Shown here one piece after another: positions 8,781 to 63,918 of a stretch of DNA of 64,000 bases. Both the position numbers and the translations under genes were made by a program. Within the stretch, counting starts at the first letter, position 1; each line of letters begins with the position of its first letter. Below the pieces are notes generated by a model that worked only from the letters and a program-made list of their open reading frames with translations, was not told the DNA's origin and ran no database searches. Origin of the DNA: Sporosarcina koreensis (lineage in GTDB: Bacteria > Bacillota > Bacilli > Bacillales_A > Planococcaceae); contig NZ_LQYA01000203.1 in the NCBI RefSeq assembly GCF_001531445.1, positions 1-64,000 of the forward strand. Direction: 5' to 3'.

Positions 8781-8858
8781 GATATCGATTGAATTTATAT
8801 CGATATCTATTGAATATGAGAGTTATCTATCGAATAGCTGGAGTTATCGATTGAATCC
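8781..8858. repeat. Phased intergenic repeat array A (four units, 20-21 bp period)
   Basis: Four degenerate copies of a 12-bp core TATC(G/T)AT(T/C)GAAT start at 8783, 8804, 8824 and 8845, spacings of 21, 20 and 21 bp. The array fills the space between a terminator and the 3' end of the convergent DUF4097 gene. Core sequence differs from the other arrays in the window, but the period is the same. Confidence 0.7.
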
Positions 8859-8889
8859 GTTCATTTATCACCAAAAAGGGACTTATGAA

Positions 8890-9921
8890 TCATCTCACCG
8901 TTATTCTTCCGTTATCCGATTTCAACCGGATTTGATGCAATTCCGCGCCAAAGCGGCTGCGGGTATTGCGATCACCGTAAATGTCAATTCGTCCATGTCC
9001 GGTTTTTGCAAGGATGGTTGCATTGGTCGCTTTATGTGTTGTCGTGATTTCAATGCTTCCGTTATCCGTTTGGAAATCGATATTTCGATCCAAATGTTCC
9101 CCGGTGAGTACGATCCGGCCATTGTCTGTAATGGCTGTCAACTCTCCATCGACTTGGTCGAACTCGAGGCGTCCATTATCTGATTCAGCATAGATGGAAT
9201 CTGCTTCGACATGTCTCAGCGTCACCCGGCCATTATCCGTTTTTGCCTTCAGACGATCTGTTTGCACTTTTGATATTTCAATCCGCCCGTTATCTGTCTC
9301 TGTTTCAAGCGTAGTAGCCGCAAGTTCAGCCAATTCGATCCGTCCGTTATCCGTGCGGCATTCGATTTGTTTCACAATCAATTTTTCGGCGTTGATCCGC
9401 CCATTATCTGATTTCATGGAAATGGATTGATACAATTTCTTTGGAATGAACACGTTCAATGCCACACCCTTCGTATTGAAATTGAATAAGAATAGCCAAT
9501 GCACTTTGTTTTTCAATTTGACCCTGAGCGTATCCCCGATAACTTCTGCGGTCAACTCCAGTTTTTCTCTTGACCCCGTCAATTCGACTCTCGTGTCAGC
9601 AGTATTGGAAGGTAGGACGGTGAGAGCCCCGTGCTGTACGTCGATATCCACTTTAGTAAAACTATCATCTTGGATCGTGATTACTTCACTCATCGGACTC
9701 ACACTCATGTCAGCAGTTTCCTTGAATGGATAAGCTTCCAATAACTCAGACGCAATTTTTGCTGGCGAACCAAGCGAAGCTGCAATTTCCTCTTCCGCTT
9801 TTCCATCTTCGCGGCCATCTGAGAAATATTCGCGGATGTCTTGGAGAATATCGTTTCTTTCATCTACAGGCAAACGTTTCAAAGCGTGTTCAAGTTCATT
9901 GATAAATTGATTTTCAGTCAT
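8890..9921 (-). CDS. HAAS-domain (DUF1700) protein with C-terminal DUF4097 beta-helix repeats
   Basis: A 343-residue protein. Residues 1 to about 70 form a HAAS/DUF1700 domain (ELEHALKRLP...ILQDIREYFSDG...AEEEIAASLGSP), commonly encoded next to PadR regulators. From about residue 165 the sequence is built of nine repeats of about 20 residues around the motif (S/T)DNGR(I/V/L), the DUF4097 pattern, probably a right-handed beta-helix. One unit has TGHGR and another TDNGS. No clear membrane helix links the two parts, unlike many HAAS proteins. It is co-transcribed with padR (8 bp overlap). Function is not established; such modules are linked to envelope-stress sensing in other Bacillales, which is inference. 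Confidence 0.85.
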   Translation of the reverse strand: MTENQFINELEHALKRLPVDERNDILQDIREYFSDGREDGKAEEEIAASLGSPAKIASELLEAYPFKETADMSVSPMSEVITIQDDSFTKVDIDVQHGALTVLPSNTADTRVELTGSREKLELTAEVIGDTLRVKLKNKVHWLFLFNFNTKGVALNVFIPKKLYQSISMKSDNGRINAEKLIVKQIECRTDNGRIELAELAATTLETETDNGRIEISKVQTDRLKAKTDNGRVTLRHVEADSIYAESDNGRLEFDQVDGELTAITDNGRIVLTGEHLDRNIDFQTDNGSIEITTTHKATNATILAKTGHGRIDIYGDRNTRSRFGAELHQIRLKSDNGRITVR

Positions 9922-10237
9922 GGCGAACGCCCTCCTCGATTAATTTATTTACACCTTCCGTGAAACTACGCCATTCATCCAGTTGCTCGTGCAAATACTC
10001 ACGCCCGGCATCCGTCAATTTGTAATATTTACGAGGAGGCCCTTCGGTTGATTCCTGTAAATAGGTCGTGAAATAGCCTTCTTTCGTCAATCGGCGCAAC
10101 AGCGGATAAACGGATCCTTCAGAAATGGATATTTGGTCGGAAATTTTCTGGACCAGTTCATAGCCGTAGCGATCTTGTTTATCCAACAAAACAAGGACAC
10201 ATAAATTTAAAACGCCCTTTTTGAATTGAATATTCAC
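9914..10237 (-). CDS. PadR-family transcriptional regulator
   Basis: A 107-residue winged-helix protein: KKGVLNLCVLVLLDKQDRYGYEL, then a recognition segment containing SEGSVYPLLRRL, then the family hallmark PPRKYYKLTDAGREYL. The GTG at 10237 is preferred because AGGAGGGG lies 6 nt upstream; a TTG one codon earlier would be too close. It probably represses its own operon. It overlaps the HAAS/DUF4097 gene by 8 bp, and a sigma-A-like promoter lies upstream. Confidence 0.92.
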   Translation of the reverse strand: MNIQFKKGVLNLCVLVLLDKQDRYGYELVQKISDQISISEGSVYPLLRRLTKEGYFTTYLQESTEGPPRKYYKLTDAGREYLHEQLDEWRSFTEGVNKLIEEGVRHD

Positions 10238-10290
10238 CAACTACCCCTCCTTTTTCAGTACTGCACATAGAATACTACTGTGTTAAGAGT

Positions 10291-10319
10291 AATATATCAT
10301 ATGGTATTATTCATTGCAA
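10291..10319 (-). promoter_or_regulatory. Sigma-A-like promoter of the padR operon
   Basis: On the minus strand TTGCAA (10314-10319) is separated by 17 bp from TATATT (10291-10296). Between this and the gene lies an imperfect inverted repeat CAGTA...TACTG (about 10256-10280), a candidate autoregulatory PadR operator. Confidence 0.55.
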
Positions 10320-10391
10320 GGTACTGTAGAAAATATTATGTCTGAAACTTTTCCATCGTTCGGACGTATATAGCGTATGGAGGTGTTCGTC

Positions 10392-10847
10392 TTGTTCGGA
10401 AGAAAAAAGTCGCAAGCAGAAGGACCAGATAAAAGCTATTTCAACGTTGGCATCATCTCGGTCAATGAACTGAACGATGACCAGTATGAAACGTGGTCCG
10501 ATGAATTGATGGATGCAGCTGACAATGTCGGGTCCACATCTTCATTGATACAGGCCAGTTGGGATGAAAAGCAATTGAAGATTCTTATAAACCGTTTTCC
10601 GGAAGTGGAAATGAATAAAACGATTTTCATGATAAATGAAATCATCCATGAGGAAATTGAAAAGGAAATCAAACAGCTCGAGCAACAGCATAAATGGAAA
10701 AAGTTCTTTAATACGATTCCGCTTACGGATTATATTGATGCGGAAGATCGGGTCGTTATGGACGCAAGTAGGACGCTTTTCTGCACGAACGATTTGCAGG
10801 AATCGGCTAGATTTCTCAAGGAACAGGCTCGAAAGACAGACATCTAA
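10392..10847 (+). CDS. Hypothetical cytosolic protein, 151 aa
   Basis: A 151-residue acidic protein beginning MFGRKKS, with a central predicted helix (NEIIHEEIEKEIKQLEQQHKW), no signal peptide and no membrane segment. I do not recognise a family. The TTG at 10392 is preferred as start because GGAGGTG at 10379-10385 lies 6 nt upstream, whereas the in-frame ATG at 10377 overlaps that site. It is followed 16 bp later by a small membrane protein gene. Confidence 0.7.
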   Translation: MFGRKKSQAEGPDKSYFNVGIISVNELNDDQYETWSDELMDAADNVGSTSSLIQASWDEKQLKILINRFPEVEMNKTIFMINEIIHEEIEKEIKQLEQQHKWKKFFNTIPLTDYIDAEDRVVMDASRTLFCTNDLQESARFLKEQARKTDI

Positions 10848-10863
10848 GTGAGGAGGAAATAGT

Positions 10864-11019
10864 ATGGAAGGAAGCTATTTTGTAGGATGGGGAACACTAG
10901 CATTAATCAACGCTGGAATCGCGCAGGGCAAAAATAGAAGCGGACTGAATTGGTTTTTATTATCATTGCTACTAGGCCCTTTTGCGACATTTTGCCTAGT
11001 CATTGCCGATAAAAGATAA
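10864..11019 (+). CDS. Small membrane protein, 51 aa
   Basis: A 51-residue ORF with a consensus GAGGAGG site 7 nt upstream of ATG. It has an N-terminal moderately hydrophobic stretch, a short NRSGLNW turn and a strongly hydrophobic helix (FLLSLLLGPFATFCLVI) ending in ADKR. Short proteins of this shape, RSGLNWF-LLGP-type, occur widely in Bacilli without known function. It is probably co-transcribed with the preceding 151-aa gene. Confidence 0.72.
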   Translation: MEGSYFVGWGTLALINAGIAQGKNRSGLNWFLLSLLLGPFATFCLVIADKR

Positions 11020-11091
11020 TTCTTTAAAAAATGCTGACATATGGTAAACTATTTCTGTACTCGAAATAAATAGCTATTGGGGGAAACGGAA

Positions 11092-12468
11092 ATGGCAGAA
11101 GTGAAAATAATCTTTGCAAATGATGAATTGATTAGCGGAAATGAAGCGCGGAAAAATTTCGTTGCACAGCAGAAGGCTGGCCATTGCTCAGTCTTGATCG
11201 AAGACATGCATTACATCGTCATCAAAGAAGCTGAAAAGGCAAATTTGGAAAAGGTCCGTTCGACGGCAGGGGACATTGCGCGTGATTTGGCAGCGCAAAA
11301 AGTGGACAAGGCGACTGTACAGGAAGGCGTCTTAGGGAAGGCTTTCGTCAGCTTGGATAACGAGGAAGTGTACACAGCCTTTGCGGAAGGATGGGAGCTC
11401 GGTTCCTATCAATTCCTATCCTATAAATCAGAAGCGGAGCGATTCAATACGGAATTGCGAGTTGATGAAAGCAATTTGCAAGCAGCTGTTCAATCGGGTA
11501 AAATCCGTGCAGCAGCAACAGCTTTCTCTCGTGACTTGATGAATGAATTATCGGACGTCCTGAACCCGGAAACGTACCCGGAAGTATTGAAGAAAAAGTT
11601 CGAAGGGAAAGCCGTCGAAATTACTGTACACGGCAAAGAGCAGCTTGAAGAGATGGAAATGAATGGTCTTTTGGCAGTTAACCGTGGCAGTAAATACAGG
11701 CCATCATTCGTGGAGATCCGTTATGAAGGTGATGCGTCCAAACCGCTTGTAGCGCTCGTCGGAAAAGGCGTTACATTCGATACAGGCGGAATCAGCCTGA
11801 AAAGCGGCAAAGATTTGAGCAGCATGCGTATGGACATGGGTGGTTCTGCGGCAGTTGCAGGAGCAATGCAGCTGCTCGTCGATTCACAGGCGAAAGTGAA
11901 TGTTGTCGCTTTGATTCCGATGGTTGAAAACACACCGGATGCACATTCCGTATTCCCTGGTGAAGTGATCCGTTATAAAAACGGGAAAACCGTCCAAGTG
12001 GGCAATACAGACGCAGAAGGACGTCTCATCTTGGCGGACGCACTTATCCGTGCTGGTGAGCTAAATGCGGAATACATCGTCGATATCGCAACACTTACAG
12101 GCGCTATCGTAAATGCACTAGGTTCAGAAATCGGCGGTGTCTTCGGCGATGAAGAACTATCATTCGTCATGAAAAAAGTAGGCGACCATAATGGTGATTT
12201 CGTATGGCCGATGCCATTGGTTGAAGCGTACGACAAGTCATTGGCAAGTGATTATGCAGATATGAACAATATCAGCTCACTGAATTTTGCCGGCTCCATT
12301 ACAGCAGGCTTGTTCCTACGCCGCTTCGTGCCAGAAAACAGCAAATGGCTTCACGTCGACATGGCTGGGATGATGAGCAAGTCAAGTGCCTCAGGCTATT
12401 ATACAAAATCAGCAACAGGCTACGGCGCAAGACTATTGGCTGACTACACTGTGGAAATTTCAAAATAA
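11092..12468 (+). CDS. pepA: Leucyl aminopeptidase, M17 family
   Basis: A 458-residue cytosolic metallo-aminopeptidase that removes N-terminal residues from peptides. The M17 signatures are present: GKGVTFDTGGISLK (metal-binding lysine and aspartate) and NTDAEGRLILADAL (metal ligands and the catalytic arginine). An N-terminal domain of about 150 residues precedes the catalytic domain, which is normal for the family. ATG 11092 is chosen because of GGGGGAAA just upstream; the in-frame TTG at 11077 lies in front of that site. It is a single gene ended by a long hairpin terminator. Confidence 0.94.
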   Translation: MAEVKIIFANDELISGNEARKNFVAQQKAGHCSVLIEDMHYIVIKEAEKANLEKVRSTAGDIARDLAAQKVDKATVQEGVLGKAFVSLDNEEVYTAFAEGWELGSYQFLSYKSEAERFNTELRVDESNLQAAVQSGKIRAAATAFSRDLMNELSDVLNPETYPEVLKKKFEGKAVEITVHGKEQLEEMEMNGLLAVNRGSKYRPSFVEIRYEGDASKPLVALVGKGVTFDTGGISLKSGKDLSSMRMDMGGSAAVAGAMQLLVDSQAKVNVVALIPMVENTPDAHSVFPGEVIRYKNGKTVQVGNTDAEGRLILADALIRAGELNAEYIVDIATLTGAIVNALGSEIGGVFGDEELSFVMKKVGDHNGDFVWPMPLVEAYDKSLASDYADMNNISSLNFAGSITAGLFLRRFVPENSKWLHVDMAGMMSKSSASGYYTKSATGYGARLLADYTVEISK

Positions 12469-12483
12469 AATAGACGAAACAAT

Positions 12484-12520
12484 AAGAGGATATATGTCAG
12501 AAAAGCATATATCCTCTTTA
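12484..12520 (+). terminator. Terminator of pepA
   Basis: A 13-bp stem AAGAGGATATATG (12484-12496)/CATATATCCTCTT (12506-12518) lies just after the stop; the T tract is short. Confidence 0.75.
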
Positions 12521-12672
12521 CTAATGCATATAGTTTTATTTTCAGTTATTGTAAAAATAGTTTGGTATGTATAGAATAAAAGGAAATGTCTGTTTTTACT
12601 GAGAGTTCAAATGCTGGCCAGTTAAAGAAAAAAGAATGAATGGGTGTTTTCGAGAATAACGGGGGGATTAAA

Positions 12673-13149
12673 ATGTCAGGAACGACAATACAAAATAAGA
12701 CTATTAAAGAGCTTGATGAAGTAAGGTTAGTAGGTTTTCGAGTTTTGTGTTCTGGGGACCAATATGTAGCTGAAATACCCAAAGCGTCATTAAAGTTAAG
12801 CAAGCGTATAAGCGAAATTAAACACGTTGTTAATGCGATTGAACAATTTGGTGCATTTGTTGTGGAAACTCGAACTGCTGACGAAGATGGATATTGGGTT
12901 TGCGTCGAAGTGGAAAAATACGAGGATATCCCCACTGATATGGTGACTCTGACTATTCCACCTCAAAAATATGCTGTTTATAGACATCAAGGTTCTAATT
13001 ACAAAATAATGGATTCATACCAGGACTTACATAAGTGGATTGAAGAAAACAACTATGTAAGGTTGAAAAATAAATGGCATATAGAAAAATTTTATGATTG
13101 GAAGGATACCGAAAAATTAGATGTTGAGTTGTTAGACACGATTGAGTAA
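12673..13149 (+). CDS. GyrI-like/effector-binding domain protein
   Basis: A 158-residue stand-alone protein of the GyrI-like (AraC effector-binding) superfamily: EVRLVGFRVLC at the start, GYWVCVEVEKYEDIPTDMVTLTIPPQKYAVYRHQG in the centre (broken here only by description) and a C-terminal amphipathic helix. No DNA-binding domain is present. Such proteins bind hydrophobic small molecules, and some hydrolyse them. ATG 12673 has a GGGGGG site. It opens the accessory region and is richer in A+T than pepA. A second GyrI-like protein is encoded at about 20.7 kb. Confidence 0.75.
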   Translation: MSGTTIQNKTIKELDEVRLVGFRVLCSGDQYVAEIPKASLKLSKRISEIKHVVNAIEQFGAFVVETRTADEDGYWVCVEVEKYEDIPTDMVTLTIPPQKYAVYRHQGSNYKIMDSYQDLHKWIEENNYVRLKNKWHIEKFYDWKDTEKLDVELLDTIE

Positions 13150-13196
13150 ATTGTTCAGCTTCATGATAGTTAGAGTTCATATGGGAGAGAAAAGCT

Positions 13197-14138
13197 ATGG
13201 ACCAAAAAATACTTAAGTTACTTAACCAATTATATCCAGTGGACATTAGGAAAGTTGAAGCAGTAACGAATGAAATGTACCGCTGTACTGCTAAACATGA
13301 TACTTATTTCGCAAGGATCACCAACTATAAAACCTATGAAGAACAGCTTGAAGAAGTTACTTATACAAACTTCTTATATGAAGAAGGACTGGGAGTATCA
13401 CCAACAATATTTTCTAGAGATGAGAAGGCAGTGGAAAAAATAACACTTGGCAACAAAGAAGTGTTGACCGTTCTATACAAAGCAGCGCCAGGTATCCATT
13501 TACCAAGAGAGCAGTGGAACGCCGATGTATTAAAAGAAGTTGGCCGCCAAATCGGTAGATTACATCGTTATTCGAGTAAATTTGAAGAGATATATCCTAT
13601 AAATTATATTAACGATTGGCATGAGAATGAAGAATATGCTTTTCTCAAATATATCCCTAAAGAAGAAAGTGTCATTAGGGGAATTGCGGAAGAGGTTTTA
13701 TCGACGGTTAAGGGATTGCCGAAAAACCGCTCGAATTACGGATTGCTACACGGAGATTTATGGTTGGAAAACGTATTGGTTGATAGTAATTCGAAGTTGA
13801 CGATCGTTGATTTTCAAGATTGTGAGAAAAATTATTACATTTTTGATTTGGCAGTTCCGATATACAGCGCTATTGAGTATTCGTTCGTAGGAGGAGGCAA
13901 CATAGTTGAATACGGACGCGACATTACAGAAGCAATCATTGTAGGATACCAGGAGGAACATGGCCTTCCCCTTGAAATGTTAGAACAACTACCCTTGTTT
14001 ATAAAGTTAAAGGAAGTATTCGAATACAGCTTGATGCATATGTACTGGAATAAAGAAAAGTTAACGGAAGAGCAGATTCGAATCATGAACCATTATAGGA
14101 TGAGGATTGAACGAAATCATTCGCTTCTAGATATATAA
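13197..14138 (+). CDS. Phosphotransferase of the APH/homoserine kinase-like family
   Basis: A 313-residue kinase-like protein. The Brenner motif LLHGDLWLENVLV (about residues 182-194) carries the catalytic aspartate, and IVDFQDCEKNYYIFDLA about 20 residues on carries the metal-binding aspartate. Family members phosphorylate aminoglycosides, amino alcohols or homoserine; the substrate here cannot be inferred. The start ATG has a GGGAGAGAAA leader. It is probably a single-gene unit in the accessory region; its 3' end abuts a decayed Nudix gene. Confidence 0.85.
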   Translation: MDQKILKLLNQLYPVDIRKVEAVTNEMYRCTAKHDTYFARITNYKTYEEQLEEVTYTNFLYEEGLGVSPTIFSRDEKAVEKITLGNKEVLTVLYKAAPGIHLPREQWNADVLKEVGRQIGRLHRYSSKFEEIYPINYINDWHENEEYAFLKYIPKEESVIRGIAEEVLSTVKGLPKNRSNYGLLHGDLWLENVLVDSNSKLTIVDFQDCEKNYYIFDLAVPIYSAIEYSFVGGGNIVEYGRDITEAIIVGYQEEHGLPLEMLEQLPLFIKLKEVFEYSLMHMYWNKEKLTEEQIRIMNHYRMRIERNHSLLDI

Positions 14139-14373
14139 CACAGTATGGAAATGATGAACGGAATATTCTTGTAGCCGGTCACAGATGTACTATGAGAGGT
14201 TGGGAAATGCCAGGTGGAATCGTTAAGAAGGCGAGTCTTTGAAAGATGCAGCGATAAGGGAAACGAAAGAGGAGTCGGGAATTGAAATAGAAGTTCTTAA
14301 ATTGTCGGCTAAGGATGATGTAAAGACAGGATTGCCCTTCCATATACAATGCCCCTTTCATTGGATCAACTGA
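14139..14373 (+). pseudogene. Nudix hydrolase remnant, truncated and frameshifted
   Basis: Read in two frames, this stretch encodes a Nudix fragment. The first frame gives DERNILVAGHRCTMRGWEMPGGIV, of which the key part is GWEMPGG. After about 14218 a one-base shift is needed to continue with EGESLKDAAIRETKEESGI. Together these rebuild the Nudix box G-x5-E-x7-R-E-x2-E-E-x-G. There is no start codon with a ribosome binding site, the N-terminal strands are missing and the C-terminal half stops early at TGA 14371-14373. It is a dead gene, or a sequencing error in the unlikely case that the ends were also misread. Confidence 0.7.
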
Positions 14374-14487
14374 TTTTGTTCATAGTGTTCAGCCAAACTT
14401 CAGCAATATGAATTTTTACAGTGAATCCGTATAATTCTTCCAGACTTATTCGTTATACATATGAAAGATATAAAAGGGGGCTATACT

Positions 14488-15417
14488 TTGGATGAACAGA
14501 AAATTAATCAGGTCATTGAGCTTTCACGGGAATTTCAGAAAGAATTCGAAACTGTCATTGCTGATTTGGGGGAAGGATTATGGAACTATTGTCGCTATTT
14601 AACGGGATCTCCTTGGGATGGTGAGGATCTATATCAGGAAACGATGTTAAAGACGATGGGAAGCTTATATCAACGTTGGCATGTTACAAACCTCAAATCA
14701 TATCTTTATCGAATTGCGACAAATACTTGGATTGACCATTATCGCAAAGAAAAGCGAATCATCGGAACGTTGTCTGAAGAGGACATACCTACGGCAGATT
14801 TTACTGATAATCTTGATCTTGAAGAGGCACTGGAACAACTATTTTACCTTTTCACGCCAAGGCAGACTGCTGTCTTTTTGTTGAAGGAGATTTTCCAATT
14901 CAACGCAGCCGAAGTGGCAAGTATAGTGAAAACAACACCTGGTGCTGTGTATGCTACAACAAGAAGGATGAAGGAAAAGTTGAAAGATAAGCCGGAGAGG
15001 TTAACGTCGAAAACAAAACCTATTGAGAGTGAAAATCAAGTCATCCAGACTTATTTGAAAGCATTAACGCATGGCGATGTGGAAGGGCTTCTTGAATTGT
15101 TTAGTGACCAGCCGCATTATGAAGCTTCCCTTGGATTTCTGGAGACAACGAAGGATGAAATTAGAAATGGGTCGATGCAATTTGGATTGCCGAGACACAA
15201 AGTGGAGCAATATATTCTTTGGGGCAGGCCAGTCATTGTCGTGTTAGCGGAATCGAAAAATGGGTTACTCATTCATGATATTCAGTATCAAGAGGTTGAA
15301 AACGGGAAAATTGTACTGAGCAGAAGTTACTTTTTCAGGAAAGAGTTTATATTTGCCGCATCAAAGGAGTTAGGCTTTACTCCACAGCTCAATAAACCGC
15401 CACTGAATTGGGAGTAA
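14488..15417 (+). CDS. ECF-type RNA polymerase sigma factor with C-terminal SnoaL-like domain
   Basis: A 309-residue sigma-70 family protein. Sigma region 2 is seen as WDGEDLYQETMLKTM...SYLYRIATNTWIDHYRKEKR, and region 4 as FTPRQTAVFLLKEIFQFNAAEVASIVKTTPGAV. From about residue 185 a SnoaL/NTF2-like domain follows (VIQTYLKALTHGDVEGLLELF), as in the SigJ-like ECF groups that lack a membrane anti-sigma factor. The TTG at 14488 is preferred because AAGGGGG at 14474-14480 lies 7 nt upstream; the in-frame ATG at 14461 precedes that site. No anti-sigma gene is adjacent, so control probably lies in the fused domain. Confidence 0.82.
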   Translation: MDEQKINQVIELSREFQKEFETVIADLGEGLWNYCRYLTGSPWDGEDLYQETMLKTMGSLYQRWHVTNLKSYLYRIATNTWIDHYRKEKRIIGTLSEEDIPTADFTDNLDLEEALEQLFYLFTPRQTAVFLLKEIFQFNAAEVASIVKTTPGAVYATTRRMKEKLKDKPERLTSKTKPIESENQVIQTYLKALTHGDVEGLLELFSDQPHYEASLGFLETTKDEIRNGSMQFGLPRHKVEQYILWGRPVIVVLAESKNGLLIHDIQYQEVENGKIVLSRSYFFRKEFIFAASKELGFTPQLNKPPLNWE

Positions 15418-15467
15418 AAGAAATTATTGTTGAACTGGTTGTAAGGAAAAGTACCACACTTGCAAGA

Positions 15468-15508
15468 AAAAAGGGCGCGCTAATGAAAATGAAAACGTGC
15501 CCTTTGTA
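15468..15508. terminator. Terminator, mainly for the minus-strand acetyltransferase
   Basis: AAAGGGCGCG (15470-15479)/CGTGCCCTTT (15496-15505) forms a stem. Read on the minus strand it ends in a T-rich tract, so it serves the gene at 15523-16407; it may also stop plus-strand transcripts. Confidence 0.65.
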
Positions 15509-15522
15509 GTGGCTATTTATGT

Positions 15523-27803: not shown

Positions 27804-27920
27804 GCGCTCATAAAAGGCGGTTTCGCGCTCATAAAAACCATTTCGCGCTCATAAACATCGGCCGCGCGCTCATAAAACTGAATACGCGCTCATAAACAGC
27901 ATTTTTGCGCTCATAAACCA
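27804..27920. repeat. Phased intergenic repeat array B (six units)
   Basis: Six copies of GCGCTCATAAA start at 27804, 27825, 27845, 27866, 27886 and 27907, spacings of 21, 20, 21, 20 and 21 bp. The 9-10 bp between cores is not conserved. The array lies between the argH stop and the shared terminator with the convergent YndJ gene. Confidence 0.85.
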
Positions 27921-31020: not shown

Positions 31021-31172
31021 AAAATGTCACCTCATTAGTACGACGATACGCAGTACGGAATGTTTCGTTTTGCTAATGGATCATTTTCTAAGTTTTATCG
31101 TTCATTTCCCCGGGTATATGATTATTTCGTGACTTATGACTTATGCTGTTTGTATGTTTCCATCAACTTAAA

Positions 31173-36386: not shown

Positions 36387-36432
36387 ATGATTGTTTCTTA
36401 AACTTCGAATGAGTAAATAGTCCCGAAAAGAG

Positions 36433-36540
36433 CATAACTAGTCTCAACTCGTCAAGATTACGCCAAAACTGCCTCGAACTCGCGCGTAACTCTCCTAGAT
36501 TGCGCCAAAACGCCACCAAACTCTCGCAAAACTGTCCGAC
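36433..36540. repeat. Phased intergenic repeat array C (10-11 bp period)
   Basis: An AACT-type tetranucleotide recurs at 36436, 36446, 36467, 36477, 36488, 36509, 36519 and 36530, with degenerate AGAT at the two missing phases (about 36456 and 36497). The spacing is 10-11 bp, exactly half that of the other arrays, with CTCG/GCGC sequence between. It fills the intergenic space between the argD terminator and the MFS gene. Confidence 0.65.
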
Positions 36541-36614
36541 CACATCACATCTTTAGAAAGAATGCCTACTATGATATGCTCATATAGCATTTATCACGAA
36601 AGGGAGACGACCAG

Positions 36615-53053: not shown

Positions 53054-53079
53054 GTGAGTTGACGGCGGGTCTTAAGTCA

Positions 53080-53222
53080 CAAAATGACAATAAAACTCGG
53101 GAAATGATCGATAAAACTCGGGAAATGAACGATAAGTGCTTCAGATTGATCGATAACTGTTTGGAAATGATTGATATCTTTCAGGAAATGATTGATATCT
53201 TTCAGGAAATGATTGATAACTA
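53080..53222. repeat. Phased intergenic repeat array D (seven units)
   Basis: Units with core GGAAATGA(T/A)(C/T)GATA recur with the ATGA (or TTGA) at 53084, 53104, 53125, 53146, 53167, 53188 and 53209, spacings of 20 then 21 bp. Units 5-7 share TATCTTTCAG next to the core and are nearly identical. It follows a terminator directly and precedes the next promoter region. Confidence 0.8.
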
Positions 53223-56653: not shown

Positions 56654-56753
56654 TTTCCAAATAGGGTATTGAATAAGAAACTGAATCCTATTGCCATACT
56701 ATCCGTATGAATAGGAAGTGGCCATAACTAATCGTAAGAGGAAGGTGATCCAG

Positions 56754-57767
56754 ATGAGTCGACAATGGATGTCAGACGATGAGTTCGACAAAATATTTGA
56801 TGAGAAATCAGCTGAAATAAACGAACAACTGGAAAGCGAAATCCTGATTGCCATGATCGGTGACGTGAATGCCGGAAAATCATCGACGATCAATCGTCTA
56901 ATGGGAGACGACGTAGCACAAGTCGGCGCGAAGCCTGGTGAAACACAGGAAATTAAGAAATTTAGTTACAAGGATAAAATCATCTTTGTCGATACTCCGG
57001 GACTGGATGATATCTACAGTGAACATTCCGATGAAACAATGAAATTTTATAAGCAGGCCGATCTGATTTTATTTTTCTTAAATGCTGCGGGGACGGTTTT
57101 GTCCGAAACAGAGCTGAAATCTTTAAAGAGGATTGCGAAGGTGAATAAAGACCTTATTCTTGTTTTAAATAAAATCGATGCCGCTGACGACATACCGAGT
57201 CTCGTGAAGTATGTCCAGGACCATACAGGCTACGAATATCCGGTCACTCCGATTTCTTCACGGACCGGGGAAAATATAGGAATGCTGCAAAAAGAAGTGC
57301 TCACATTATTGGAAGCCAAAAAAAAAGATATTTTAATGGCGGCAAACATGAATGATAAATCAGCAATCGCAAACCGGTGGATCCTCGCTGCAGGAGCATC
57401 CGCTGCCACAATCGGAGCCGTACCGATTCCAGGGTCCGACTTTGTTCCGCTAACCGCATTACAAGTCAGTCTAATGTTGAAGCTATCGACGTTGTACGGA
57501 AAACCGATAACGAAAGACAACGCCAAGGAATTGATCATCGCGACGATTGTCGGAAACATTGGAAAGACGGTTTTCAGGCAAATCGTGAAGTTTGTTCCCG
57601 GAGCAGGCATGGTGGCGGGGGCAAGTGTTGCTGGCGGAATGACGATTGCTTTAGGACATGCCGTCAAATATGCGCATGAAAATGATATAGAACTCACTCC
57701 AAAATCATTAAAACCGATCTATCAAATGTTCTTGAAAAAGACGAATAAAAAAGAAAAAGAAAAATGA
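56754..57767 (+). CDS. GTPase with C-terminal DUF697 membrane-association domain
   Basis: A 337-residue protein. The N-terminal Era/dynamin-like GTPase has G1 GDVNAGKSS (about residue 34), G3 DTPGLDD (about 79) and G4 NKID (about 137). The C-terminal DUF697 part contains two to three hydrophobic segments (GAVPIPGSDFVPL, FVPGAGMVAGASVAGG) and a basic tail. DUF697 GTPases are found at the membrane in other bacteria, with unknown role. ATG 56754 has GAGGAAGGTG upstream; the ORF extends to 56718 without need. Confidence 0.85.
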   Translation: MSRQWMSDDEFDKIFDEKSAEINEQLESEILIAMIGDVNAGKSSTINRLMGDDVAQVGAKPGETQEIKKFSYKDKIIFVDTPGLDDIYSEHSDETMKFYKQADLILFFLNAAGTVLSETELKSLKRIAKVNKDLILVLNKIDAADDIPSLVKYVQDHTGYEYPVTPISSRTGENIGMLQKEVLTLLEAKKKDILMAANMNDKSAIANRWILAAGASAATIGAVPIPGSDFVPLTALQVSLMLKLSTLYGKPITKDNAKELIIATIVGNIGKTVFRQIVKFVPGAGMVAGASVAGGMTIALGHAVKYAHENDIELTPKSLKPIYQMFLKKTNKKEKEK

Positions 57768-58003
57768 AGTGGTTGTAAGCTCGTTAAAAGCTTGATGCTA
57801 TGAGATTATAGCTTTCTTACTTGAGAAAGATAGACGGACATTTTCTATTTTAATCATGAAATAGAATGGTAGACTGGAACTATAACCAGTTAATACCTCT
57901 ATCAATTTTATAAAATATGATTAATAATGTTTGTCGAGGGTATACGTATATGGGATGCATTACTCTCAATTATTTCGTACATCTCAGAGGAGGAAATTTA
58001 TTT

Positions 58004-60865
58004 ATGGGTAACAACCAACCAAAAAAATATCGTAATTTCATGATCGGTGCAGCTTCAGCAGCATTGGTCGCAACAGCAGTAGCACCAGTGGCTAGCGCGG
58101 CAGAGTTTTCCGACGTGAAAGGGAATACGCACGAACCAGCTATTAAAGCATTGGTAGAAACAGGAGTTATCAATGGCTATCCCGACGGTACATTCCAACC
58201 GAATAAAACATTGACTCGTTCTGATGTTGTCAAAATGATGGGTAAATGGCTAGTATCACTAGACTATAAAATCCCGACAGATTACAAGACAAACCCGCGA
58301 TTCAAAGATCTTACATCTAAATCAAATGACGAACTCCTTAAATATGCTGCACTTGTAAAAGACAATGGCGTATTTAACGGTTACGAAGATGGAACACTCG
58401 GAGCAGGAAAAGATATTACACGTGAAAACATGGCGATCGTTCTTGTCAGAGCATACGACGCTATCCATAAAACCGATCTAGTAACACTAGTAAAAGAAAA
58501 AGAATTCAACAAAGATGTAACAGATCTAGCAAAAGCGAAAGCAGAAGCTCGTCCTTACATCGATGTACTAGACTACTTCGATATCACGAACCCGATTGCA
58601 CCGCAATTCAACCCGAAAAACACAACAACACGCGGTCAATTCGCTTCATTCCTCTACAAAACTTCTAATGTAAACGTAGAAGAAGAAGCAGACACAGAAG
58701 CACCAAAACTAGTTTACACTGGCGAAAAAACACTTAACGTTGAATACGGCGCAGACTTTACACTTCCAGTTGTAACTGCAACTGACAACGTTGACGAAAA
58801 AGTCGAAGTCACTTCTGTTATCACAAACGAAGCTGGCGAAAGACTAACTGCCATCGACACAAAAGTCTATGGCACATACAAAGTGACATACAGCGCGGTT
58901 GACGAAGCAGGAAACAACGCTGAGGATTTAGTACTTACGGTTGTCGTTGCAGAGCCAACAAACCTTGAAGTTGCATCCGTTGAAGGAATCAACGCTACAC
59001 AAGTTGAAGTGAAATTCAACCTTCCAGTTGATAAAGCAACTTTGTTTGCAGACGGTAAAAGCGGAGCGTTCAAAGCTAATGTCGTTTCACTAACATCACT
59101 TGACAATGTACGTCCAGGAGCTCTTACAGGCGAGTTGTCAACTGACGGTAAAACGTTGACAATCACAGCGGCTAACGTACTTTCTAAACGTTACGATGTC
59201 GTCATTGACGGTTTGAAATCATACAACGGCAAAAACATTGTGAAGTATGAAGAAATGGTTACAATTGCGGCAGATAAAACGGCACCAACAGTCGTGAAAA
59301 CCGAAAGAACTTCTGCTAGCACATTCAAAGTAACTTTCTCTGAACCTCTTAAATCTCTTGGAGATGTTAGCTATAAACTAGCAAATGGTACAGCTGTTAC
59401 AAGTTCTGCTAAAGGTGTTACAAACAACTTTAAAGCGGGAGCTAAAGAAGTAACATTCACTCTAGGTTCAGACGTTGCTGCTAACCAAGACGTGATTGCT
59501 ACATTCATTGGCACACAAGACCAAGCCGGCAACTTGATCTCACCGAATCCTACTACTGTCACTTTCCAAAAGGGCGACAAAGATGGAGTGAAACCAGTTG
59601 TAACATCTGTTACGCAAACTGGTGCGAAATCTTTTGCAATCAAATTCACTGAGGAGTTACAACAAGGTCCGACTGTAAAAGTTGGTGGCACAACAGCTTC
59701 AAAAGTGGAGAAAGATGCAAATGATCCAACTGTTTACAATGTAACTACTTCAGCTGTTCTTGATGAAGCGAAAACTGTTGAAATCAGTGGATTCATCGAC
59801 CTTAGCGGCGAAGCGGGCGACACAGTTAGCAAAGTGGTAAGCTTTGTTAAGGATAGTAATGCTCCAAAAGTTGCTTCAAGCAAAGTCGTTGCGGATGAAA
59901 CAAACGGAAAAGAATATCTTGAAATTACATTCGACAAGAATGTTGATTTAGGTAATGCTCCTACAGTAGACGGAGTTGGTTCGTATGTTAAAAATTACGT
60001 AACAACACAAGTTACTGCTGAAAATCTTTCCGCTACTACTGTCGAATACAAAAACACTTCAAATAAGAAGGTTGTACGTGTTGAGCTTGATGCATTCCTT
60101 GGTTCTACATTTGATGTAGAAGGTGCAGTTTACACACTTGATTTGACATTTGCAAATATTACAAGCGAATCAGGAGTTATTGCTGACACAGCTAAAGTAA
60201 CGTTTACTCGTGGTAAAGATAACACTCCTGCAAGCGATGCAATCGTTGGGGTAGAATCTGTTGTTCAAGATCCACAAGATAACAACAAGGTAAATGTCAC
60301 ATTTGATAAAGCGGTTGACGGAGCATCTGCGACGACTGCTGCTAATTATCAAATCGATGGTGCAGTAGTTGAATCTGTGAAATTAAATCCTGTTGCAGAT
60401 GGTAAGCAAGTTGCAGTTCTTACATTGAAGCAAGATTCTAATAATTTTACAGGAACTCGCAACATCAACATTGCAAACGTGAAAGCACTAGGTTCAGCTA
60501 AAGTGATGGAGCCTTTCTTCACGAATACTGTATCACTTAAAGAGAATGTTGCACCAACAGTAGCATCTGCTAAATTAGTAGGAACAAATCAAGTGACTCT
60601 TACATTCTCTGAAGCTGTCACTACAACTTCAGGAACTAATGATTTTGACCTTCTAATCGGTGGAGCGACAGTTGCATCTAAAACGGCTGTAACAACTCCA
60701 GCACATACAGACGGAGTTACTACTGTAACATTCACATTGGAAAACAACCTTTCTAATGCTGATTTAGAAAAGACGTTAGAGTTGAAAGTTAAAAACACCC
60801 TAACTATTAAAGACGCTTCTGGAAATAAACTGGCAATACCTGCGAATATCACTATTTCTAGATAA
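58004..60865 (+). CDS. S-layer protein with three SLH domains
   Basis: A 953-residue exported protein. The signal peptide ends ASA at residues 30-32, before AEF. Three SLH repeats follow (AEFSDVKGNTHEPAIKALV near 33, FKDLTSKSNDELLKYAALV near 104, and YIDVLDYFDITNPIAP near 187) and bind pyruvylated wall polymer. From about residue 230 there is an Ig-like (DUF5011-type) domain and several beta-rich Ig-like repeats to the end. It has no cysteine, typical of S-layer proteins. ATG 58004 has GAGGAGG upstream; the 29-residue in-frame extension is in the long leader and is rejected. Confidence 0.93.
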   Translation: MGNNQPKKYRNFMIGAASAALVATAVAPVASAAEFSDVKGNTHEPAIKALVETGVINGYPDGTFQPNKTLTRSDVVKMMGKWLVSLDYKIPTDYKTNPRFKDLTSKSNDELLKYAALVKDNGVFNGYEDGTLGAGKDITRENMAIVLVRAYDAIHKTDLVTLVKEKEFNKDVTDLAKAKAEARPYIDVLDYFDITNPIAPQFNPKNTTTRGQFASFLYKTSNVNVEEEADTEAPKLVYTGEKTLNVEYGADFTLPVVTATDNVDEKVEVTSVITNEAGERLTAIDTKVYGTYKVTYSAVDEAGNNAEDLVLTVVVAEPTNLEVASVEGINATQVEVKFNLPVDKATLFADGKSGAFKANVVSLTSLDNVRPGALTGELSTDGKTLTITAANVLSKRYDVVIDGLKSYNGKNIVKYEEMVTIAADKTAPTVVKTERTSASTFKVTFSEPLKSLGDVSYKLANGTAVTSSAKGVTNNFKAGAKEVTFTLGSDVAANQDVIATFIGTQDQAGNLISPNPTTVTFQKGDKDGVKPVVTSVTQTGAKSFAIKFTEELQQGPTVKVGGTTASKVEKDANDPTVYNVTTSAVLDEAKTVEISGFIDLSGEAGDTVSKVVSFVKDSNAPKVASSKVVADETNGKEYLEITFDKNVDLGNAPTVDGVGSYVKNYVTTQVTAENLSATTVEYKNTSNKKVVRVELDAFLGSTFDVEGAVYTLDLTFANITSESGVIADTAKVTFTRGKDNTPASDAIVGVESVVQDPQDNNKVNVTFDKAVDGASATTAANYQIDGAVVESVKLNPVADGKQVAVLTLKQDSNNFTGTRNINIANVKALGSAKVMEPFFTNTVSLKENVAPTVASAKLVGTNQVTLTFSEAVTTTSGTNDFDLLIGGATVASKTAVTTPAHTDGVTTVTFTLENNLSNADLEKTLELKVKNTLTIKDASGNKLAIPANITISR

Positions 60866-60884
60866 TAGAAACGCATGATACTAC

Positions 60885-60916
60885 GTAAACCCCTTGGTTC
60901 AGCCAAGGGGTTTTCT
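60885..60916 (+). terminator. Terminator of the S-layer gene
   Basis: AAACCCCTTGG (60887-60897)/CCAAGGGGTTTT (60903-60914). Confidence 0.87.
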
Positions 60917-60951
60917 GTATACTAAATTTAAAAGCAAAAGGACTGATCCCA

Positions 60952-61743
60952 ATCAAAATAGGTCTAATCGGAAAAGGAAACCTCGGCACATATCTCTTAC
61001 AAAAAATAAACAAAGAACAACTCCTGCCCAATGTCAAAATCACCGCTATATTAGATGAACGAGAGAAAGCGAGAGTTGAGCTTCCTGCGTGCGCCGATAC
61101 ATACGATTGCCAAGCATTTCATGACATAACTTCATTCTTGCAATCTGACATTGATATCGTAGTCGAATGCTGCAACATCGAAGCGGCAAAAACATATGGA
61201 CTTGGCGTCATCCAAAAGAAGGACTTGATGCTCATCAGTGTTGGAGCGTTCGCCGATTCTTCCTATGGCAAACGTTTAGAACAGGCGGCAGAAGAAAACG
61301 GACATCGAATCTATTTGCCATCCGGTGCGATAGGCGGCTTGGATGTCCTGAAGGCGGCTAAATTGGCAGGCGGGCTTGAGTCCGTCGTGCTTACTACCAG
61401 AAAACCCGCTCACTCTTTAACTGCAGATAAAATTACTGTGGAGCAAACGCTGTTTGAAGGGCCAGCCCGTGACGCGATTGAACAATTCCCTAAAAATGCG
61501 AATGTCGCCATCGTATTGTCGTTGGCGGGTGTTGGAGTAGAGAAGACGCGTGTCCGTATCATTGCCGATCCAGCCATCAAGCAAAACATTCATCATATCA
61601 CGGCAAAGGGTTCTTTCGGCGAATTCGATATGACCATCAAAAACAACCCGTCTCCGGACAATCCGAAGACGAGCCATATAACGGGTTCTAGTATTTTAGC
61701 GGCTCTTGCCAACTTGAATAGTGCAGTTGTAATAGGAACGTAA
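60952..61743 (+). CDS. nadX: L-aspartate dehydrogenase, NadX-like, without an ATG/GTG/TTG start
   Basis: A protein of about 263 residues of the aspartate dehydrogenase family (NAD biosynthesis, iminoaspartate formation). The Rossmann start IKIGLIGKGNLGTYLLQ, VECCNIEAAKTYG, ISVGAFADSS, LPSGAIGGLDVLKAAK and NNPSPDNPKTSHITGSS are all present. The conserved start would be at ATC 60952-60954, 9 nt after AAAAGGA. The frame has no ATG, GTG or TTG before 61138 that gives the nucleotide-binding domain; CTG 60943 is too close to the ribosome binding site. Either a near-cognate start is used or the start codon is mutated. It is convergent with the DUF2935 gene. Confidence 0.8.
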   Translation: MKIGLIGKGNLGTYLLQKINKEQLLPNVKITAILDEREKARVELPACADTYDCQAFHDITSFLQSDIDIVVECCNIEAAKTYGLGVIQKKDLMLISVGAFADSSYGKRLEQAAEENGHRIYLPSGAIGGLDVLKAAKLAGGLESVVLTTRKPAHSLTADKITVEQTLFEGPARDAIEQFPKNANVAIVLSLAGVGVEKTRVRIIADPAIKQNIHHITAKGSFGEFDMTIKNNPSPDNPKTSHITGSSILAALANLNSAVVIGT

Positions 61744-61747
61744 AAGT

Positions 61748-62560
61748 TTAATACCCTTGCACTCTTTCCTTTGCGGGATTGCAGTCAGGATCCGGTGTAC
61801 CTGCCGACTCCGCGAGTTTCAATAAATAGTAACATTCCTCGCGGGCCATATGGTCAGCCATCAGTGGGGTTAAGGCTCCAAGCGTTTCTTTTTTCAATCC
61901 CATTTCTTCTAGTTCATTCAAAAACGTTTTGAAGATGGACATTTCCAAGTAAACGTCGCTATGGAATTTTTCCAATGCAGGGAATTTGGCCACGTTAGTG
62001 CGCAAAAATCCAGTCATTTCAACGGCTTTCAGGTAGAACGCTTCCCAGTCCTTCATGAATATGCTGCTTTTCTTTTTCAGCTGCGTTTCAACACGATCCA
62101 TATTTGCATCAATCGCACCGGCGTGACCTGCTGCGTCTAGCAGCCATATGAGATCATGGTGAAGTGGGTGGACTAGCGGAGGCGTTTCCCCCTTTTCCAA
62201 ATAGGAAAAGAGTCTGATCGCTTCTTCGACTTCATTGACCATATGGTTGATGAAAGATGGAGTCAATGAAATCTTTATGTTCCCGACCAATTGTTCCTTG
62301 ATAATGGCTAGCTTAAACTCGCGGATTGCTTCACTTTCTGTTTTAGAATGACTGACCAATGATAGTAATTCGCTTTGATTTAAAGATTGCTTCGACCGAT
62401 TCAATAATTTATCGAACCGATCAATGAAAGCTGCGGCAGTGTCAATCCAAGCGTTTTGGCCAGGGGCAAGTGAATCGTGAAGGAATCTGCCATGATCCCC
62501 AAGTATTTGAAGCCAAAAATGCAATTCATCCAAAGCTTCTTTCTGAAATGAACTATTCAA
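61748..62560 (-). CDS. DUF2935 domain protein
   Basis: A 270-residue all-helical protein with two DUF2935 halves: EALDELHFWLQILGDHGRFL at the N-terminus and HHDLIWLLDAAGHAGAI, DHMAREECYYLLKLAE further on. The histidine and glutamate pattern is ferritin-like and may bind metal. The family occurs in spore-formers, role unknown. TTG 62560 has GAGGAGGTG upstream; the ORF extends to 62626 without a site. Confidence 0.85.
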   Translation of the reverse strand: MNSSFQKEALDELHFWLQILGDHGRFLHDSLAPGQNAWIDTAAAFIDRFDKLLNRSKQSLNQSELLSLVSHSKTESEAIREFKLAIIKEQLVGNIKISLTPSFINHMVNEVEEAIRLFSYLEKGETPPLVHPLHHDLIWLLDAAGHAGAIDANMDRVETQLKKKSSIFMKDWEAFYLKAVEMTGFLRTNVAKFPALEKFHSDVYLEMSIFKTFLNELEEMGLKKETLGALTPLMADHMAREECYYLLKLAESAGTPDPDCNPAKERVQGY

Positions 62561-62727
62561 AACTTCACCTCCTCGTATACTACTTACCATTCTATGAGAA
62601 AAAAATGGATATATAACAATCTCCAAGGTATTCCACTTGATCCTCGACTATGGTTAAATAGTAGTAGGTCCAGAGATTCCGAATAATAGTGAAAAGTCTG
62701 TGTGTGAAGAGAGTTAGGGGGGATGAA

Positions 62728-63639
62728 ATGGTGAAACAGGTGATTGAACAAGTAACGGATGATCATGTCGTAAAGGCGCTCGAGAAGAATCTTGCCATCA
62801 TCCGATATGATTTGGATCATAAAATTGCTTACGTCAACGATATTTTTGCAAATGCAATGGGGTACTCGAAAGATGAAATGATCGGTGTCCGGCATGACGA
62901 TCTTTGTTTTGATGAATATGTGAAGAGTGCTGAGTATGACAAGTTCTGGCGGGAGTTGCTGCGTGGCATCAGCCAACACGGGAAAATTGAAATGAAAGAT
63001 AAGAATGGTGAGAAAGTATGGCTTGAGGCAACGTATATGCCTGTATTCAGTCATGATGGGAGAAAAGTCATTAGTATTTCCAAAGTTGCCTCAAATATTA
63101 CGAAACGGCAAATGTCTATCACCTCTGTTGTCGAAGAGTTAAGACAGATGTCGGAAGGGTTGACGGAACGCGCGGATATTGGAATGGAACGGAGCAAGGA
63201 GTTGTTAGTAATTATCGAAGATATCGCGGCGATTTCCCATGACAATACGAAAACTCTTGAGAATTTGCAGTTGCATGCCGAAAGCATCCAGCATATCGTG
63301 AAGACGATCAGGGAAATTGCGGCTCAAACAAATTTGCTCGCTTTGAATGCAGCGATTGAAGCCGCGCGGGCGGGGGAGCATGGAAGGGGCTTCGACGTTG
63401 TTGCAAAAGAAGTCCGTAAATTGTCTGCAAATGTGGAGAAGTCGATCGTGGAAGTACGTGAGGGAGTCGAAGCGATCACGACGGAAATCAAAAATATTTC
63501 TAAAGGAACGACGTTGGCCCAGGAAAACGTCGACCGTTGCCAGCAACGGATTGAAATCGCAATGGACGATTTTTTAGCGATCGCTTCATCTGCGTCCGAG
63601 TTGGACAATCAATCGAGGAAAGTATCGAGTATCGTGTAA
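62728..63639 (+). CDS. Soluble PAS-domain chemoreceptor-like protein
   Basis: A 303-residue cytoplasmic methyl-accepting chemotaxis-like protein. Residues about 18-130 form a PAS domain ([30 protein letters not shown], given here as [14 protein letters not shown]). The C-terminal half is a coiled-coil MCP signalling domain with the hairpin tip [24 protein letters not shown] ([10 protein letters not shown] seen). No membrane segment. It may sense redox or oxygen through PAS. ATG 62728 has GGGGGGATGA upstream. Confidence 0.88.
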
Positions 63640-63645
63640 GCATAA

Positions 63646-63683
63646 AACAGGTGAAGGAGCATTTACTCCTTCACCTGTTGTTT
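63646..63683 (+). terminator. Terminator of the PAS-MCP gene
   Basis: AACAGGTGAAGGAG (63646-63659)/CTCCTTCACCTGTT (63666-63679), a 14-bp stem, with T after it. Confidence 0.87.
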
Positions 63684-63699
63684 CATTTATTCTTGCAAG

Positions 63700-63918
63700 G
63701 GCACTATGAATTGCGCAAGGGTCCATTCTTTTGAACAAGGGCTCATTCTTTCCGCTCTAGGGTCCATTCTTTTGAACAAGGACCCATTCTTTCTGCTCCA
63801 AGGTCCATTCTTTTGAACAAGGACCCATTCTTTCTGCTCCAAGGTCCATTCTTTTGAACAAGAGCCCATTCTTTCCACTTCAAGGTCCATTCTTTTGCGC
63901 AACGGCCCATTATTTCCT
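63700..63918. repeat. Phased intergenic repeat array E (at least ten units)
   Basis: CCATTCTT cores start at 63723, 63743, 63764, 63784, 63805, 63825, 63846, 63866, 63887 and 63907: spacings of 20, 21, 20, 21, 20, 21, 20, 21 and 20 bp. Two alternating spacer types (TTTGAACAAG and T(C/T)NGCTCCAA) give a 41-bp higher-order unit. It follows a strong terminator and lies near the right edge. Confidence 0.88.

Follow-up and report, generated by a model that had tools for sequence, protein, structure and literature searches.

Arrays of short direct repeats occupy intergenic DNA of Sporosarcina koreensis, and five of them (A1 to A5) lie in the window analysed here, a stretch of 64,000 nucleotides at positions 1 to 64,000 of contig NZ_LQYA01000203.1. 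In these arrays, a repeated core recurs at steps of 20 or 21 bp, close to two helical turns, and the letters of the core differ from one family of arrays to another. A preliminary description of the window had pointed to the five arrays, which were all found at the places it gave. The present analysis adds that G+C content alternates once per helical turn in core and spacer alike. They are best read as selected wrapping sites that lie in intergenic DNA outside promoters and are commonest between convergent genes. What is new is the observed rule; the mechanism is unproven. No description of such arrays was found in the open-access literature, which is not proof that none exists.

Spacing, cores and spacers

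The sample of the host genome comprised 649 kb on 10 contigs (the window included; two contigs incomplete), which is 15% of an assembly of 4.34 Mb in 425 contigs. Repeated 7-mers in its intergenic DNA (475 stretches, 75.8 kb) were scored at every lag against dinucleotide-preserving shuffles. Lag 20 holds 431 pairs and lag 21 holds 293, compared with 6.2 and 8.1 after shuffling. The two-step lags 40, 41 and 42 hold 394, 276 and 201 pairs, lags 60, 61, 62 and 63 hold 258, 32, 48 and 113, and lags 80 to 84 hold 273, 20, 101, 42 and 77; lag 100 has 192 pairs, and lag 105 is also prominent. Among the remaining lags from 5 to 99, the maximum is 21 pairs (lag 34, 4.3 after shuffling), and several reach 14–17 against 3–7 in shuffled sequence. 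Autocorrelation over the intergenic DNA of the host genome thus confirms the signal and makes it larger than the preliminary description had claimed.

A period-blind test gives the same picture. Successive distances between 9-mer seeds with at least three copies (449 intergenic stretches) fall 80 times at 20 bp and 90 times at 21 bp, and each of the remaining distances between 9 and 39 bp is counted four times at most. There are 2 steps of 19 bp and 1 of 22 bp, against 170 at 20–21 bp, and the shuffled control has 0 at 20 bp and 2 at 21 bp. A broad range of periods, the outcome that the preliminary description had named as fatal to its proposal, is not seen in the host genome, but lags of 50 and 52 are present in other genera. 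Up to lag 110, the 649-kb sample has only one further strong period in its intergenic DNA, of 108 bp (205 pairs), which is ascribed to a 31+77 satellite at G000:C108:16203-16719. Repeats at lag 21 in coding sequence (718 pairs against about 390 at adjacent lags) were considered and set aside, as the strongest look like arrays miscalled as genes or like runs of N, which contribute equally at lags 20 and 21.

Individual arrays were collected with a detector that chains at least four copies and permits only steps of 19–22 and 40–42 bp; it was run without a shuffled control. Because the permitted steps are restricted, the distance counts of the detector are no evidence for the period, which comes from the autocorrelation and the period-blind counts. 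The 649-kb sample contains 38 detected arrays, which would correspond to about 250 in the whole genome if they are evenly spread. Most are 80–250 bp long, with one of about 400 bp, and the median distance from first to last core is 120 bp.

Across the host genome and the other loci, 117 arrays were detected, and 106 were retained for later array statistics and for the G+C spectrum. The other 11, at ten loci (L096, twice, L108, L122, L214, L235, L240, L250, L251, L253 and L270), were left out by our choice because we judged them to be coding sequence for a coiled coil, AT-simple, from outside the family or weak; all 117 were used only in the position-conservation contrast below. Since families may be related by descent, the most reliable figures are those from tests in which each family contributes a single array.

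The period depends on the family. It is nearly always 20 bp in TTTATGCG and GATCATAAA and nearly always 21 bp in TGAYCGATAA, GCGTCCAAA and TATCTATYGAAT, with single exceptions, and it is mixed in GCGCTCATAAA and GGTCCATTCTTT. Higher-order units of 41 and 42 bp exist in some arrays. The longest array of the host sample (G000:C180:96536-96916) has 20 copies of GTGATCATAAATC at exactly 20 bp, a run that would drift by about 1.8 turns on DNA of 10.5 bp per turn. The earlier statement that each core lies on the same face of the helix is therefore not general. From G000:C3:210775 onward, CGCATAAA units are followed by units in opposite orientation (TTATGCG), which form an inverted array pair. Five contig ends (both ends of C25 and the starts of C10, C60 and C108) lie in 20–21 bp arrays or within about 250 bp of them, and a run of N stands inside an array near 139.4 kb of C3, so the arrays probably break short-read assemblies.

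Core and spacer each measure about 9–12 bp, and the two have fared differently between species. Downstream of the gene that we take, on sight, to be spoVR, arrays of nine species have 32 of 32 steps at 21 bp. All of these steps are single, which means that no unit failed between the first and the last. Core positions at this site are 0.71–1.00 identical between species, with 0.39 at the free N, and the other positions are 0.26–0.69 identical, with one at 0.91. In three arrays downstream of argH, all 19 steps are 20 or 21 bp, the core is 0.76–1.00 identical and the other positions are 0.24–0.62 identical. Core identity is partly by construction in these comparisons, as units were chosen by at most two core mismatches and by partners at about 20–22 bp or multiples of it. 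In the full set of 117, identity is 0.84 at the best 10 positions and 0.44 at the remaining 10, a contrast of 0.41 compared with 0.22 for permuted positions.

Between families, the cores have no shared grammar. The mean best match among about 28 hand-deduplicated cores is 3.98, against 3.99±0.05 for dinucleotide-shuffled cores; mononucleotide shuffles give 3.80±0.06, and this slight excess indicates that a weak common composition exists. A hidden consensus of all cores seemed likely on inspection but was rejected: automatic clustering had given 1.86 against 1.67±0.01 with redundant families still included, and the excess vanished after deduplication when dinucleotide shuffles were the reference.

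About 28 unrelated cores thus step at 20 or 21 bp, and the steps are kept while spacers diverge. These results bear out the earlier view of conserved spacing with unconserved sequence and of selection on helical spacing. The preliminary description had also offered a duplication mechanism that acts in helical steps. This fails to explain conserved cores beside drifted spacers, a pattern that plain tandem duplication would not produce.

G+C alternation and genomic placement

G+C content alternates every 10.3 bp or so across core and spacer, giving two GC peaks per unit. In the 106 arrays, the 10-bp harmonic is 6.61, compared with 2.90±0.25 for permuted positions (0 of 500 permutations reach it), and the 20-bp harmonic does not differ from chance. 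When each family label contributes a single array (n=31, three of them belonging to families that the labels missed), the 10-bp harmonic is 6.10 against 3.08±0.53 (0 of 2000 permutations), and the 20-bp harmonic is 2.94 against 3.09. The second harmonic exceeds the first in 25 of the 31 families.

The alternation extends into the spacers, which are free in their letters. A phase fitted on the cores predicts the G+C content of the spacers, with a mean projection of 0.285 against -0.002±0.020 (520 spacers) and a positive value in 85 of 96 arrays. Spacer phase is 0.308 compared with 0.005 in control spacers, which were taken from other intergenic DNA with the same neighbouring triplets, and 85 of 96 arrays lie above this control. 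When spacers alone are used, the phase is positive in 28 of 31 families (sign test, p=4.6e-6). Letter identity at lags 10 and 11 is 0.289 and 0.277, against 0.297 and 0.296 expected from the G+C phase alone; letters are therefore not copied at lag 10–11, and only composition is phased. The same identities led us to reject half-unit copies of a 10-bp ancestral repeat, none being seen in the letters.

We disregarded the distribution of GC peak periods, since a 20–21 bp period by itself produces a maximum near 10.3 bp, and the evidence for the G+C phase consists of the amplitude tests and the spacer tests. Gaps that contain no array have little of the alternation: their mean power at 9.5–11 bp is 1.30 between convergent genes, 1.12 between tandem genes and 1.04 between divergent genes, compared with 1.04–1.05 elsewhere in the spectrum.

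Genes were called with simple models of our own (a hexamer model in part, longest frames in part), and 32 of the 38 arrays could be placed. Among gaps of at least 60 bp, an array lies in 12 of 53 between convergent genes, 18 of 245 between tandem genes and 2 of 80 between divergent genes (convergent versus tandem, p=0.002; divergent versus the rest, p=0.039). The earlier claim that each array starts beside a terminator describes the five window arrays, as judged by eye, with arrays lying on either side of the terminators. It does not extend to an enrichment in the sample, and on this point the second refuting outcome named in the preliminary description did occur: according to a rough hairpin detector of our own, hairpins are found in 3 of 18 tandem gaps with an array and 85 of 227 without, and in 8 of 12 convergent gaps with an array and 23 of 41 without. 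A terminator-linked element was rejected, as hairpins are not enriched next to arrays.

The arrays take either orientation. In the whole genome, the pair pattern of the commonest core, TTTATGCG, occurs 64 times forward and 67 times in reverse, and TTATG/CATAA arrays that lie in tandem gaps point along transcription in six cases and against it in three. An element with a cognate neighbour gene, as REPs have in RAYTs, was rejected: 69 neighbours among 687 proteins, from 15% of the genome, contain 4 homologous pairs against 3.2 expected. Phage origin was also rejected, on a search with one core: the TTTATGCG pair pattern matches 65 stretches of viral contigs, one match each and no chain, with the chance expectation not computed.

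A proposed wrapping model and its alternatives

Differing letters combined with two-turn spacing suggest that the cell reads DNA shape or bendability as well as letters. We propose that selection has shaped the arrays for bending or wrapping around the surface of a protein, and we judge this proposal about equally likely to prove right or wrong. Of the two turns in each 20–21 bp step, one is conserved in letters within a family and the other is free in letters but phased in G+C. A wrapping DNA-binding protein, or a small set of such proteins, may contact one turn in two and assemble side by side, which would yield a solenoid or loop. Such a protein would make sequence contact in one turn and rely on bendability in the other. 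Since bendability can be attained by many sequences, family letters would be replaceable in evolution and the geometry would stay. Between convergent genes, transcription from both sides drives positive supercoils together. Arrays at such places may retain, take up or mark torsional stress, or keep adjacent transcription units apart.

A more specific version of this proposal is that the arrays are a bacterial counterpart of satellite chromatin. They would be chromosomal wrapping sites defined by geometry and not by sequence, perhaps a few hundred in each array-rich genome. An architectural protein, possibly assisted by gyrase, would wrap them so that positive supercoils are retained or taken up at the meeting points of converging transcription units. 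The two-turn step and the 10.3-bp G+C phase would be kept, and the letters replaced between species. This version is tentative, and we lean against its being correct in full.

Bacterial repeat families are usually defined by sequence; here, spacing and a bendability-like composition persist through about 28 letter-unrelated families in several genera. Sequence-based repeat searches can miss a whole element class of this kind. If confirmed, the arrays would give direct access to the way in which bacteria may position wrapping or topological sites at the ends of genes, and they would offer a natural set of sequences, independent of letters, with which DNA mechanics can be tested in living cells.

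ParR bound to the plasmid centromere parC is the best known model for the working of an array of this kind. According to the excerpted text of PMC9426499, parC contains direct repeats, including repeats of 10–11 bp or, in pSK41, 20 bp, its DNA is wrapped into a solenoid, and its repeat sequence differs between plasmid families. The arrays are likewise direct repeats of about 10 or 20 bp. A parC centromere lies beside parM, with one or few sites per replicon, whereas the arrays form 38 chromosomal sites in 649 kb. No recurrent neighbour protein family was found at the arrays, in comparisons that included no search aimed at ParM or ParR. Eukaryotic satellite DNA keeps its repeat length while its letters turn over between species, with a unit of about 170 bp that is set by the nucleosome. 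The arrays resemble it in keeping length and differ in their unit, which is two helical turns instead of nucleosome-sized.

Several points weigh against the wrapping proposal. The wrapping protein is putative. Wrapping alone leaves the conservation of core letters unexplained, so that sequence-specific contact is needed too, and it is difficult to imagine a single protein that reads about 28 unrelated cores. Periods near exactly 20 and 21 bp correspond to 10.0 and 10.5 bp per turn, and one rigid surface would not fit both. Arrays of exactly 20 and exactly 21 bp need different twists if they are to keep phase, which implies that binding sets the twist or that more than one protein is involved. 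The 20-bp harmonic is as large as the 10-bp harmonic or larger in 6 of 31 families, G+C power near 10 bp is marginal in A1 (p=0.051), and the placement counts are small and based on our own gene calls. Detected arrays are present in 6 of 20 Sporosarcina genomes, each sampled over 40 kb, a weak seventh having been dropped. As arrays are few or absent in many genomes, their function is not essential to the genus.

Strong DNA gyrase sites, the counterpart in this family of enterobacterial BIME elements, are the leading named rival, because gyrase wraps DNA, its motif in E. coli shares the phased 10-bp G/C variation, and its action lies downstream of genes that are transcribed; we consider this explanation possible but doubtful. 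Gyrase reads flexibility more than letters and is found, to our knowledge, in practically all bacteria. REPs lie in intergenic DNA, mostly at gene 3' ends, and the arrays are placed in the same way. REPs are palindromic, hairpin-forming, structured units, in contrast to the arrays, which are direct repeats without clear structure (A5 in part). The excerpts of PMC6379681 describe the E. coli gyrase motif by "phased 10-bp G/C content variation" and report that gyrase is drawn downstream of transcribed units, with BIME-2 enriched. The arrays display this phased variation, share with REP/BIME elements and gyrase sites their intergenic position at gene ends, favour convergent gaps and have a median of 120 bp between outer cores. 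Gyrase leaves unexplained the conservation of 10–12 bp cores between species and a repeat of two turns rather than one. It is also nearly universal, whereas the arrays are patchy even within a genus.

Ordinary sequence-specific sites for several unrelated proteins, with a two-turn spacing that serves cooperative binding without wrapping, would account for the conserved cores of each family, for family-specific periods, for both orientations and for the end block of TTATC arrays. We regard this as unlikely. Such sites would not predict phased G+C in free spacers or a common step among about 28 unrelated cores, and only 2 of 80 divergent gaps, where promoters lie, contain an array.

Selfish or neutral satellites are improbable in our estimate. 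Under this explanation, replication or repair duplicates two-turn units, which persist where they are harmless. Copy number indeed differs between close relatives: A5 has 10–11 cores here, 2–3 in S. luteola MER 9 and one in MER 47, two strains whose FabI is 97% identical to that of the host. The 41- and 42-bp higher-order units, the rarity in divergent gaps, the patchiness and the contig ends at arrays also agree with satellites. Duplication would act equally on both parts of a unit, whereas the cores are kept and the spacers drift; 19- and 22-bp steps are nearly absent, and the spacers retain their G+C phase.

An RNA role, for example as protein-binding or structured elements of 3' untranslated regions, is highly improbable: some arrays lie between stop codon and terminator (A2) and A5 folds somewhat better than its shuffles (on either strand, 9 of 200 shuffles equal or surpass it), but arrays occur in both orientations and on either side of terminators, the five window arrays have no clear RNA fold on either strand (z-scores -1.74 to +2.10), and the window has no Rfam match at gathering score.

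Other known systems differ from the arrays more plainly. CRISPR arrays have repeats of about 23–47 bp and unique spacers of about 30 bp, and they were rejected on dimensions, core and spacer here being about 9–12 bp each. STAR elements of staphylococci, in the parts of PMC3532100 available to us, are intergenic, with a short core and variable spacer, variable copy number, locus-specific spacers, a patchy distribution among species and unknown function, all of which recall the arrays. They have one GC-rich 14-bp core, T(G/A/T)TGTTG(G/T)GGCCC(C/A), and spacers of at least 40 bp (40–44 bp at gapR), in contrast to the roughly 28 unrelated cores, 20–21 bp steps and 10.3-bp G+C phase of the arrays. 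By eye, the STAR consensus of that source fits none of the listed array cores, and its spacing is not matched by arrays that step at 20–21 bp with spacers of about 9–12 bp. The 10–11 bp periodicity of prokaryotic genomes (excerpts of PMC3372288, PMC516772 and PMC7537859) is likewise a composition signal at the helical period; as presented there it is a genome-wide statistical trend, whereas the arrays are local and strong and have repeated cores.

The window arrays and their relatives

Table 1. Repeat arrays and end blocks in the window (positions of the 64,000-nucleotide stretch).
Feature	Position	Strand	Units, core and steps	Remarks
Array A1	8781..8864	+	4–5 units, core TATCKATTGAAT, steps 20–21 bp (21,20,21)	Highest lags 21, 62, 20
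End block of TTATC-type array	8865..8891	+	TTATCACCAAAAAGGGACTTATGAATC	Resembles block at same end of other TTATC arrays
Array A2	27804..27917	+	6 units, core GCGCTCATAAA, steps 21,20,21,20,21	Highest lags 41, 21, 20
Degenerate TTATCGTTCATTTCC array	31093..31140	+	About 2 units and end block	S. luteola MER47: 6 units at same place
Array A3	36430..36537	+	GC-rich and A-rich patches that alternate every turn (10.25 bp), without a 20-bp repeat	
A4 end block	53068..53093	-	TTATTGTCATTTTGTGACTTAAGACC (minus-strand letters)	
Array A4	53082..53219	+	6 units, core GGAAATGATYGATAA, steps all 21	Highest lags 21, 42, 63
Array A5	63697..63918	+	10–11 cores, GGNCCATTCTTT, steps alternating 20/21 (41-bp higher-order unit)	Highest lags 41, 20, 21

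The preliminary description had called the five window arrays unrelated. This is not so for A1 and A4, which both have TTATC-type cores, on opposite strands, and a common end block. The spacing of 20–21 bp stands for A1, A2, A4 and A5. A3 lacks a 20-bp repeat and is instead a 10.25-bp alternation of G+C (positions 36401-36541, power 10.5, p=0.001), with a 20-bp power of 0.9 and weak lags at 42, 31, 63, 11 and 21, and it is not counted among the 38 arrays. Among 585 overlapping windows outside detected arrays, A3 is the strongest; 17 of the 585 have p<=0.01, some of them being small arrays that the detector missed. Counterparts of A3 are shorter in two relatives. A chain search for 10–11 bp arrays found three regions, all within 20–21 bp arrays, and none in shuffled sequence, and it missed A3 itself. 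As such chains occur only inside 20–21 bp arrays, the A3 type is rare.

G+C power peaks at 10.2 bp in A2 (p=0.002), 10.55 bp in A4 (p=0.001) and 10.25 bp in A5 (p=0.005). A2 follows the argH stop codon and precedes a hairpin terminator, and A4 lies downstream of the gene called spoVR. The place of A1 holds six units each in MER47 and MER9.

An end block like TTATCGTCATTTCGTGACCTTTGACCT, about 25–27 bp long, closes arrays of the TTATC superfamily on one fixed side relative to the core. A strict pattern for it matches 6 of 16 TTATC arrays and none of the 16 opposite flanks. A related block can be seen by eye in 16 of 16 arrays, several of which are orthologues. None is evident by eye in the TTTATGCG, CCATTC, CGTCCAAA, GCTCATAA or AACGAGAA families. 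The block recalls the start signature found beside loci of STAR elements.

The cross-species set consisted of eighty named loci around fabI. An excess at lags 20 and 21 is present in the Sporosarcina, Bhargavaea, Chryseomicrobium/Tetzosporium and Lysinibacillus groups of these loci and absent from the Psychrobacillus set and the single Paenibacillus locus. Cores in other genera include GAATCGAACGATTA in a Bhargavaea, GCATGNAGAANAAAC in Chryseomicrobium and Tetzosporium, CTATCCGTCACTT and TTTTTGATCACTTG in Lysinibacillus, and GCGGGCGAAT in Metasolibacillus. In the Lysinibacillus set, 105 of 123 lag-20 pairs come from one locus (L119). An excess in Bacillaceae was dropped, as it consists of one Domibacillus locus that looks like coding sequence. 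Strong signals near five helical turns occur at lag 50 in the Bhargavaea set (157 pairs) and at lag 52 in the Lysinibacillus/Ureibacillus set (472 pairs). Per-locus means trace each mainly to one locus, and both are exceptions to a strict 20/21 rule.

Nine stretches from other genera of the same family give a weak signal (lag 21, 24 pairs; lag 42, 28 pairs), but lag 15 reaches 26. Outside the family, a small sample of 31 stretches of 20 kb has no comparable signal: lags 20 and 21 hold 13 and 33 pairs (5 and 8 after shuffling) and lag 41 holds 45 (15), with other lags higher (95 at lag 9, 77 at lag 18). Of 61 genomes, 9 contain the TTTATGCG pair pattern; eight of these are from the host genus, the host itself included, and one, with two matches, is from another family.

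The same place can hold different arrays in different genomes. An argH query matched 61 of 68 genomes, and among the best 30 loci, some have GCGCTCATAAA arrays downstream of argH, others have CGCGCCCAAAG, TCGCGCTCAAGGAA, TTATATGATCGGT, TCCAACGA or TTATCCGTCA (the last with two units only), and many have none. Many of 30 spoVR loci are also without an array. The remaining spoVR loci include the TGAYCGATAA array common to nine species, GCGCTCGTAAACC in one and a few other short arrays. One record of the cross-species set, L066 (NZ_JADHDX010000003.1), is titled Arthrobacter beigongshangensis and encodes a FabI 83% identical to that of this Sporosarcina, which suggests that it may be mislabelled or contaminated.

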